A stretch of DNA of 64,000 bases from contig NC_007775.1 of assembly GCF_000013205.1 (NCBI RefSeq), forward strand, positions 992,001-1,056,000. The letters run 5' to 3'. A model generated the notes under the pieces. The model was not told the DNA's origin. It was given only the letters and a program-made list of their open reading frames with translations, and did not search any database. The position numbers and the translations under genes were made by a program. Origin of the DNA: Synechococcus sp. JA-3-3Ab. GTDB lineage: Bacteria > Cyanobacteriota > Cyanobacteriia > Thermostichales > Thermostichaceae. Below, piece by piece: positions 17,453 to 21,966 of this stretch (position 1 is the stretch's first letter; each line of letters begins with the position of its first letter).

Positions 17453-17527
17453 GATTAGGGAAGCACTGGGTGAACCCGTGCTGAAGTAAAGCAGAAACAC
17501 GCTTGGCTAACGGAGTGAGGTGTGAGG

Positions 17528-19699
17528 ATGATGAACCGTCGAGTCGCCTGGGGATGTGCATTGAGCTTGATCCTTTCACTGCCCCTGTTGGCTGTGGAAA
17601 GCCAGCTCGATGAAGCCGCCGCCCAGCAGTTGACCTCCGCCAATCCACAAAGCCTCAGCCGCATTACCGATATCCGCCTGGTGCCCCACGGCAACCGCAT
17701 GAAGCTGGAGATCAACACCGCAGGGGGCGCCCGTCCACAGGTGTTCTTTACCCAGCAGGGCCAATCTTGGATTGGGGATATCACCAATGCCCAACTGGAT
17801 GGAGGTCAAGGTCGCTATCGTCAGGAGTCTCCCCTGCCGGGAGTGCGCTTCATCGAGGCCAAGCAAATGGGCAATGACAGCGTGCGGATAGAAATTGCCG
17901 GCGTTGCGGCAGCTCCCCAGGGCTTGCTGGCCCAGCGCAGCCCAACGCAGTTGGTCTTCGAGTTTGAGGGCTTGCCCTCTGCTCCACCGGCTCCTGTAGC
18001 GGCATCGCCTAGCCAAGTAGCGCCCAATCAACCGGCCTCGCCGGCTCGACCCCAGCCCGTGGCCCCGCCGCCAGCTCCTGCCTCCCCTCCGGCTGCTCAA
18101 AACCCTCCTTCTCCCCAGGGGACAGCCCCTAATCCTCAGCCGCTTGCCCAAACCCCTCCCTCTTCCCCGCCAGCTCAGGCAGCTCCTACCCCTCAGCCAG
18201 CTTCTCCTGGGCCGGTTATTTCTCAGGTGCCCTCTGTAGGACAGCTCAACCAACCCCAACTGCCACCGGGATCTGTTGAACTCAGCACTTCTCCGTTCCA
18301 GGGTCGAGCAGTAGCTCCTCCGGCAGGGGATCTTGCAGTCGGCAGCATCATTCCTGCTCCCCCTCCAGTTGACTTGGGCTCAAATGCCAAGATCACCTTA
18401 ACCCTGAGGGATGCTCCCGTAGGTGACGTGTTGAGTCTCTTGGTGCGTCGAGCTGGACTAAATGTAGTCCTTAATGATGTTCCTCCAGACTTAACGATTT
18501 CCTTGGATGTAGCTGACTCACCTTTGCAAGAGACATTTAACTTTATCTTGCGCCTGAAGGAACTGCAAGCAACCCGTGTAGGGCAAACAGTTTTTATTGG
18601 TACTACACTCCCTGGAGTCGGCCAGCAGATTGTCAAAACCTATAGACTCAATCAACTGAGAATCGAAGAAACAGAGCAAACTTTTGTCTTTAACGCTTCG
18701 GGAACTGCAGGGGGAGGAGGAACAGTTGAAATCGATGCTAGGCAACTAAGTATTACTCCGAGTGAAATCAGAAGTAGAATTTTGGCCATTCTGGAAGCAT
18801 CAAATATCCCTTTAGCTCAAGAGTCAGCCATTCAAGCGGATCCAAGAACAAATTCACTGACTATTGTTGCCACACCTACCCAGCATGATGTAATTGCAGC
18901 ATATCTTGCCCAAATTGACTTGAGAAGTCGACAGGTTTTAATTAGTGCTAGGTTTATTGAGATCAACCTAGATAATAATTCTAGTCTAGGAGTTGCACTG
19001 GGTAGTGCATCTGGCAACTTTGCTCTGGGGTCTGGAGATAACACTGTCTTCGGTGGAACTCCTCTTGACCAACCTGCAGGATCCTCAGTTCCTAATGTTG
19101 GTTCTTTTCCTGCTGCAGGGACTGGAGGCTCACTTGTGTTTAACACCTTAAATCGATTACAGCAATCTCTAGCAGCTCGTATAGATGCAGCCATTGCTTC
19201 AGGAACAGCTAAGATATTGGCCGATCCAAAAGTAGTAGTCGCGAATAACACTGGCGCAGCTATTGTGGTTGGCCAAGAAGTTATCACCAATAGGAGATTG
19301 CAAACAGATCCTGCGACTGGCATATCAACTGTCGTTTTTGAGAAAGGAAATGCGGGAGTCAATTTACTCATTCAGAATGTCAGGATCGATGATAACGGCT
19401 ACATTACGCTGAACCTTCTTCCACAGATCTCATCTATTGGCAGTCAAATTACACTTTCTGATGGCACTGTTATTAGTTTGCTCAATCAGCGTTCTGTCGG
19501 AACATTGCAAACCAGACTTAAAGATCGAGAAACACTATTTCTTGGAGGATTGATACAAGAGGAAGATCGAGTATCTGTTGATAAAGTCCCACTTCTTTCT
19601 GAAATTCCTTTACTTGGCTCCCTCTTCCGCAGACAAAACACAACAAATACTAGAAGTGAGGTTGTCGTCTTGATTACTCCAGTTATATTGGAAGATTAA
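17528..19699 (+). CDS. pilQ: Type IV pilus secretin PilQ
   Basis: This protein of about 723 residues begins with a signal-peptide-like hydrophobic stretch (GCALSLILSLPLLAVES). An AMIN domain (about 45-155) binds peptidoglycan. A long Pro/Ala/Gln linker (about 155-240) leads to secretin N-domains (KITLTLRDAPVGDVLSLLVRRAG) and the C-terminal secretin domain with the family signature VPLLSEIPLLGSLFRR and VVVLITPVIL. PilQ forms the outer-membrane pore for the pilus. The ATG at 17528 follows GGAGTGAGG. From about 18.3 kb the DNA becomes clearly richer in A and T than the first third of the gene. Confidence 0.95.
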   Translation: MMNRRVAWGCALSLILSLPLLAVESQLDEAAAQQLTSANPQSLSRITDIRLVPHGNRMKLEINTAGGARPQVFFTQQGQSWIGDITNAQLDGGQGRYRQESPLPGVRFIEAKQMGNDSVRIEIAGVAAAPQGLLAQRSPTQLVFEFEGLPSAPPAPVAASPSQVAPNQPASPARPQPVAPPPAPASPPAAQNPPSPQGTAPNPQPLAQTPPSSPPAQAAPTPQPASPGPVISQVPSVGQLNQPQLPPGSVELSTSPFQGRAVAPPAGDLAVGSIIPAPPPVDLGSNAKITLTLRDAPVGDVLSLLVRRAGLNVVLNDVPPDLTISLDVADSPLQETFNFILRLKELQATRVGQTVFIGTTLPGVGQQIVKTYRLNQLRIEETEQTFVFNASGTAGGGGTVEIDARQLSITPSEIRSRILAILEASNIPLAQESAIQADPRTNSLTIVATPTQHDVIAAYLAQIDLRSRQVLISARFIEINLDNNSSLGVALGSASGNFALGSGDNTVFGGTPLDQPAGSSVPNVGSFPAAGTGGSLVFNTLNRLQQSLAARIDAAIASGTAKILADPKVVVANNTGAAIVVGQEVITNRRLQTDPATGISTVVFEKGNAGVNLLIQNVRIDDNGYITLNLLPQISSIGSQITLSDGTVISLLNQRSVGTLQTRLKDRETLFLGGLIQEEDRVSVDKVPLLSEIPLLGSLFRRQNTTNTRSEVVVLITPVILED

Positions 19700-20499
19700 G
19701 GCGAAATACAGAATTTCATCGTTTTTGGCCATCCACTTTTATGAGATGAATTGTGCATCAATGCTGAGTTCGAACTCTCGCTATCGACCTTGGGTCAGGC
19801 TGGGATCCCTATTGCTCAGCTTGGTTCTGGCTTGGGTGCTGGCTTCGATTGACGCAGGGTGGTCACAAACCTATCGCCTTTCTCTACCGGTACAGGGTCA
19901 GAGCTATTCGCAGCTAGTCGAGCAATCACGTCCTCTGGTTTGGCGAGCTTTGGCGCAACAATTTCAAGCTCAACCGCAGCCGGAGCAGATCACCTTGGAG
20001 GTACTGGGACAAGCCGGGGATCGGCAAGCCCCTCTATTTACCGTGCGAATGCCTCGCAGCGTTTGGCAGCAAAACCCCTCCCCCGCTCAATTGGAGCAGC
20101 ATACCATTTTCTATCCTGATGCGTTGGCTCTTTTACAGCCGCGAGCACCGCTGCAGCAAGCCCAGGTAGAATCTACTGCTCCCTTTGCAAATGGAATTAC
20201 ATTGGTCTCCAGCAATCCTTCCAATGGCCAAAGAGGGATCCCAATTGACCAAAATATCCATCTGCGTTTTGATCGACAGCTTCCAGCCGGAATAACAGGT
20301 CTAGCCTTCGGGATCCAGCCCCCTGTGGAGGTGGCCTTTGACATTCAGGGAAACGAGCTGATCTTTCAGCCTTTACAGCTACTCAGCTACAGCACAGATT
20401 ACAGAATACTCTTGCCTGCAGCCAAAGAGCTGGATTTACAAAAGCCCATAGAATTGACTTTCCGCACCGAGCCTCAGTACAGTTACCAGCGAGATATTA

Positions 20500-21515
20500 C
20501 AGCCTGTTAAGGGCTCAAGGGGTACAATAGCAGCACTTAGCAAACCAACTTCGGAAGGAGGATGGATTGATCAGTAGTAAAGAAGTCTTCACTATCTGCT
20601 CCATGCTATATTTCCCAATTCTGCAAAGCTGCCGAATAAAATGCTTCAACACCGACCACATCATCTCAATGGGATTCAACTCCGGCGCATACACAGGCAG
20701 GTATAGGATTCGTGCTCCTGTCCCCCTAATCAATTCCTCAACTTCCCGACTCTTGTGGATATTTAAATTGTCCATAATCACAACCTTCCTCGCATCTAGC
20801 TTCGGACATAGCTCGCTTCTCAAAAACTCCAAAAAATCTCCTTTCTTCATCCCACCCTTGATGACACGACAGCCAACTACACCTCTCAAGGAAATAGCTC
20901 CAATAACCGTATACTTTTCACCCTTGTATCTCTGACGATAATGATAAGCCCTTTGACCACGTAAACTCCGAGATACTCTCCGCTCCATTCCCTCCCAGAC
21001 TCCCGTCTGGTCGATGGCAATCAAATCCTCCGCTGGAATATTCCTGACTTCTTGACTATAAGCTAGTCGTTCCCTTTGCACCTCCTCTTCTTTGACTTTT
21101 GCACTGCGGTAGGTCTTTTTTTTAGAGTCATTCCTTGCTTTTTCAAGAAATTATGTATCGTGACGATGCTTACATTGATTCCTAAGCGCTCGCGCAACAG
21201 TTCTTGATACTGCCACAGGTAGAAGTCTGGGTGTTCTGTAATAATTGCCATCACTTCCTGCCGATGTTGTTCCAAAATGCCCACTCGCTTGGTGCCTGCT
21301 TTCTTAGGGGCTAAATCTTGAGTTTGTTGGTACTGACGCACCCAGCGGTGTACTGTTCTTTTGGTCACCATGAAGCGTTTAGCTACCTGGCGGATGGAGG
21401 TGTTACCTGCCTGGTAGGCTGCTACAACTCTTTGCCGCAAATCCAAAGAATGAGTCGGCATTCCTTTCTCTCCTTCCTCTTGAATACCTGTACCCTATTT
21501 TAAATTAAAAGGCTG
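20500..21515 (-). mobile_element. IS630-family (Tc1/mariner-like) insertion sequence, about 1.0 kb
   Basis: The ends match as imperfect inverted repeats: CAGCCTGTTAA on the left and, reversed, CAGCCTTTTAA on the right, each followed further in by GGGTACA. The flanking dinucleotide TA is present on both sides, as expected for this family. The transposase is read on the minus strand in two overlapping frames. Host reading frame continuity across the site is exact, which points to a recent, clean insertion. Confidence 0.9.
20515..21461 (-). CDS. IS630-family transposase, two frames joined by a -1 frameshift
   Basis: The first frame (21461-21063) encodes a helix-turn-helix DNA-binding part (MPTHSLDLRQRVVAAYQAG, TKRTVHRWVRQYQQ). 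The second (stop at 20515) encodes the DDE_3 catalytic part with IDQTG, MDNLNIHKS and NPIEMMW, which hold the Asp, Asp and Glu. At about 21112-21119 the coding strand has a run of eight A followed by G. A -1 slip there continues into the second frame as KKTYRSAKVKEEEVQRERLA, giving one transposase of about 310 residues. Programmed slippage of this kind is known for IS630 relatives such as ISY100. The element looks potentially active. Confidence 0.9.
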
Positions 21516-21966
21516 TAAGCCCTTGCTAGAAGCCAGTTGTGTAGGTTGTCATCAGCAGGCCGGTCGGATGCGGCGCAGCCCTTTGGATAGCTATGCCGCG
21601 GTGATGCGTTACGTAACGCCCGGATCAGAAAATAGCGAGTTGCTGAAACCGCGCTGGTTAGCTCGCCATGCTGTTATTCAGCGGGCGGCAGGGATCCCCT
21701 TGAATGGGGAAGGAAAAGAGGCCGACGCCCCCGGTTCCTTGTTGGAGCTTGGGACAGGAGCCATGCCGACGCCGAGACCCCCCGTGAGTGATCCCCAAGG
21801 AGAATTTCCCGGCTCTTTTATTGGACGCAGCGGATCTCCCGAATTGGCCTATATTCGCCGCAACGGCACCGGCACCGATCGCTTGGGCCACTTGAGCCCT
21901 GAGGAAATCCAGATCTTGCGTACCTGGATTATTCAGGATTGGGCTGCTGAGACCCACAAAAGTTAA

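Follow-up and report, generated by a model that had tools for sequence, protein, structure and literature searches.

The locus downstream of pilQ in Synechococcus sp. JA-3-3Ab, where an IS630-type element stands between two open reading frames, raises the question of whether a single gene was split there by transposition or whether two genes have always flanked the element. We addressed it in a window of 64,000 nucleotides, the whole stretch of DNA analysed, which is part of a single 2,932,766-base chromosome (genome G000), and by searching the joined protein against 39 genomes, relatives being compared at the species level with one genome per species. The features discussed are listed in Table 1.

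Table 1. Features at the interrupted gene following pilQ (window coordinates).
Feature	Position	Strand	Basis
pilQ, type IV pilus secretin (AMIN and secretin domains), upstream of the broken gene	17522-19699	+	Pfam (Secretin 125 bits, AMIN 48 bits, both above cut-off); gene order in relatives
Broken gene, 5' part: leader, N-terminal domain, Big_5 Ig-like domain, to ...YQRDI and the target TA	19746-20499	+	Translation; Big_5 score; orthologue alignment
Left TA target duplication	20498-20499	.	
IS630-family (Tc1/mariner) insertion sequence, 1016 bp, transposase antisense to host gene	20500-21515	-	Shared ends and TA; IS630 models
Transposase frame B, DDE catalytic part, 188 aa from first start codon	20515-21081	-	DDE_3 (PF13358), 103 bits, above Pfam cut-off
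Transposase frame A, 132 aa, helix-turn-helix DNA-binding part	21063-21461	-	HTH_Tnp_IS630 (PF01710), 38.2 bits (Pfam cut-off 21.3)
Frameshift site (position approximate), CTAAAAAAAAG (A8; A_AAA_AAA heptamer, -1 frame)	21114-21128	-	A-run variants among copies
Right TA target duplication	21516-21517	.	
Broken gene, 3' part: CVGCH haem-attachment site and C-terminal region, lacking a leader of its own	21518-21966	+	Translation; orthologue alignment

Taking out the element together with one TA joins the two parts of the broken gene into 1203 nt, that is, 400 codons and a stop counted from the ATG at 19746, with an in-frame join reading ...YQRDI|KPLLEASCVGCHQQ.... The sequence-only reading had proposed that removal of an IS630-type element restores a 400-codon gene exactly, and this is borne out: the joined frame is open throughout, no other stop or frameshift occurs in either half, and the TA duplication, the matching ends and the exact join are all present. 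As interrupted, the left frame runs for only about 9 bases into the element before a TAA ends it (...RDITAC*, 20510). Whole, uninterrupted homologues were found in three congeners among the 39 genomes searched (G003, 88% identity; G002, 79%; G001, 79%), as stop-free frames of 385-398 aa lying directly after pilQ, with pilM, pilN and pilO ahead. The DNA across the join contains the stretches GATATTAAGC in G003, GATATTAAAC in G002 and GATATCAAAC in G001, and the alignment over it (cgagatattaagcccttg for the joined sequence, cgggatattaagcccctg for G003, cgggatattaaacccttg for G002 and cgggatatcaaacctctg for G001) is free of gaps, so that only the element and one TA have been added. The TA target is present in the two nearest whole alleles, and no copy of the element sits at the same site in any other species examined. 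The insertion is not due to chance, as all 16 full copies of the element in G000 share the same ends and TA duplications and three congeners carry the gene unbroken. The earlier claim that the element entered a once single gene cleanly is thus supported; that close relatives may keep the working form is confirmed at the species level, and part of the population may keep it as well.

It is hardly credible that the halves have been separate genes from the outset, with the element between them. Such an arrangement might be suggested by G007, a member of the same family in which a stand-alone gene for the N-terminal domain (155 aa) follows pilQ without a haem half, and by a paralogue that has the Ig-like and haem parts but not the N-terminal domain. 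However, the break lies inside the continuous Ig-like/haem stretch, away from the border of the N-terminal domain, and the join is exact at the TA. Two separate genes with no joined form were specifically looked for, and this arrangement is excluded because the three congeners carry the whole gene in one frame. We found no evidence against the insertion itself, and it is almost certain that a copy of a resident, recently active IS630/Tc1-mariner element entered a TA of the 400-codon gene following pilQ, presumably by cut and paste, splitting the Ig-like from the haem part.

The element is bounded by CAGCCT...AGGCTG, and its terminal inverted repeats (CAGCCTGTTAAGGG.. and CAGCCTTTTAATTT..) are perfect over the first 6 bases and imperfect thereafter, with GGGTACA in common at positions 21-27. 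The 16 full copies in G000 are 97.7-100% identical to the window copy, which shows 0 differences in 1016 positions from the copy at C1:1152500-1153515; the multicopy state and the identical copies suggest that the element is active. Recently active IS elements abound in both Yellowstone strains (PMC2246112). In its duplicated TA, inverted ends and transposase with helix-turn-helix and DDE parts, the element resembles ISY100 of Synechocystis, the studied cyanobacterial member of the IS630/Tc1-mariner group, which likewise duplicates TA on insertion (PMC2170065). Unlike this comparison, the window copy has a two-frame transposase, joined by a -1 shift at the A8 run of CTAAAAAAAAG. The transposase had been described beforehand as intact in two frames, with the nuance that intact here means an A8 version which requires a -1 frameshift or slippage; the NF033545 model scores 108.5 bits with frame B (cut-off 100), while frame A alone stays below the cut-off. 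Four sister copies have A9 and one fused frame (310-315 aa), and two copies have A7, which puts the transposase in the wrong frame; this variation of the run (A7, A8, A9) was seen at window 21114-21128 and at loci L003, L006, L007, L008, L045 and L050. The -1 step is also required in more distantly related elements, found in G003 and, as a fragment, in G000, so the two-frame form looks ancestral. Use of frameshifting is known in IS630, and transcriptional realignment has been reported for a Roseiflexus IS630 (PMC5009743).

Two further pairs of copies deserve mention. At L005 and L006 (G000:C1:2653678 and 2739989) the same TA was hit in two copies of one gene, by elements of opposite orientation and different sequence, that is, by two independent insertions at one site; the gene hit looks like an IS200-type transposase gene. 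L003 and L049 (G000:C1:1290348 and 1300200), about 10 kb apart, have the same right flank and different left flanks, a pattern suggesting that copies were duplicated or recombined with one another.

The insertion looks recent, since the element is identical to another copy over its 1016 bp, and the recency proposed earlier also agrees with the freedom of both halves from other lesions; its date is soft, however, because gene conversion can homogenise IS copies. Substitutions between G000 and G003 give a dS of 0.19 in the 5' part of the gene, compared with 0.71 in the 3' part and 0.7-0.9 in pilM, N, O and Q, and a test for relaxed selection since the insertion counts 13 N : 13 S changes on the G000 branch and 17 N : 21 S on the G003 branch, not enough to put a date on it. 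Within window positions 19804-21600 identity to G003 is 91-97% over the 5' part of the broken gene, compared with about 80% in the surrounding genes; the low-dS block begins just past pilQ and looks like a product of inter-lineage exchange. That these Yellowstone species recombine with each other has been documented (PMC12755884).

A further reading is quite unlikely, namely that the element struck an existing pseudogene and that its insertion therefore had no effect. Erosion of the gene is seen elsewhere: G004 (3,046,682 bases) has no trace of it after pilQ, G005 retains only a 3' remnant of about the last 44 codons, and in G006, of the same family, it is open in two frames. In addition, the comparison of G000 with G003 gives the 5' part a dN/dS of 0.29, somewhat above the 0.09-0.17 of the neighbouring genes. 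However, this higher ratio reflects the low dS of the block with 91-97% identity to G003 and is based on few changes, the ratio in the C-terminal half is 0.11, and neither half has another stop or frameshift.

Under the preferred reading, a resident IS630/Tc1-mariner copy would have moved by cut and paste into a TA of the gene, duplicating the TA and parting the Ig-like from the haem region, and the gene would thereby have been inactivated. The left fragment, with its stop so close to the junction, has no haem site; the Ig-like fragment could be exported even now. The right fragment has no export leader, so that the compartment of c-type haem attachment would be out of reach for its CXXCH. From these features we infer loss of function. 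The loss appears to be tolerated, and the gene dispensable, because other species have lost it and the paralogue remains.

As had been read from the sequence, the gene follows pilQ and encodes an Ig-like plus single-haem protein: the upstream product has secretin and AMIN domains above the Pfam cut-offs, pilN and pilO precede it in the window, and the order is the same in relatives. The joined product comprises a membrane or secretion leader helix, the N-terminal domain, a Big_5 Ig-like domain (PF13205, 35.7 bits against a Pfam cut-off of 23.6) and one CXXCH haem site. All eight aligned homologues keep CVGCH and an RH further downstream unchanged, which makes bis-His ligation of the haem possible. 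No known cytochrome family in Pfam scored above its cut-off, PccH reaching 13.5 bits (cut-off 24.4) and Cytochrome_CBB3 11.9 (27). The likeness to the monohaem cytochrome PccH (PF22297; PDB 4rlr) is a short match around CXXCH, below cut-off (E 0.076 and 0.01), and the remainder of the protein has no match; a search of PDB sequences likewise gave matches confined to the surroundings of CXXCH. The predicted structure of the G003 orthologue, made from two sequences, is poor, with a mean pLDDT of 49.5 and the N-terminal domain alone near 80. The product is most likely an exported monohaem protein, and it may be linked to the pilus, judging by gene order. The paralogue, at C1:159310 in G000, is 51% identical and is also found in all five other members of the genus. 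In G006 (L054, G006:C108, 8983-12211) a tandem pair of shorter Ig-haem paralogues comes after the full-length two-frame homologue past pilQ, an arrangement which suggests that the family arose beside pilQ.

A search of the literature found no published account of this insertion, and a comparative-genomics paper on A-type strains mentions neither insertions nor pilQ. The closest precedent is ISSoc1 in Synechococcus OS-B', which interrupts cas2 in the isolate whereas metagenome assemblies carry intact cas2 (PMC2612747). The two cases are alike in that an IS lies in a host gene in a sister organism, and differ in the element and the gene concerned; for cas2 the uninterrupted allele was seen in the mat population, with population data, whereas here each species is represented by one genome. 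By analogy, the present insertion is probably a case of that kind. The cas2 example shows that insertions in an isolate can be unfixed, and, with a multicopy element that looks active, one might consider that the element acts as a reversible switch, the population alternating between split and whole alleles. We regard this as very unlikely: in ISY100 the cut lies two nucleotides in from the 5' ends (PMC2170065), so that a footprint should remain after excision, and exact restoration would come mostly through recombination with a whole allele.

The simple insertion favoured here is an ordinary and well supported IS event that leaves general understanding unchanged. It nevertheless provides a clean, checkable case of recent IS-caused gene loss in a well-studied hot-spring cyanobacterium; the whole or split state at one TA is a ready marker for population surveys, and the case points to a haem protein, as yet uncharacterised, whose gene lies beside pilQ in this family. 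A bolder idea, which we consider unlikely, is that the repeated breakage or removal of the pilQ-linked haem/Ig gene within one small group, by different lesions (IS insertion, deletion, truncation and frameshift), reflects selection against keeping a haem protein at the surface or linked to the pilus, while split and whole alleles still segregate in the mats. If true, the repeated loss could reflect, for example, phage pressure on such a protein.

pilQ itself has a two-part composition, with a GC content of 0.59-0.67 in the 5' part and 0.37-0.48 in the 3' secretin part. The N part of PilQ is 77-88% identical across the genus, while the C part is about 86-88% identical in G003 and G002 and only 49-56% in G001, G004 and G005; the genus has at least two C-terminal PilQ types, switching near the same point.
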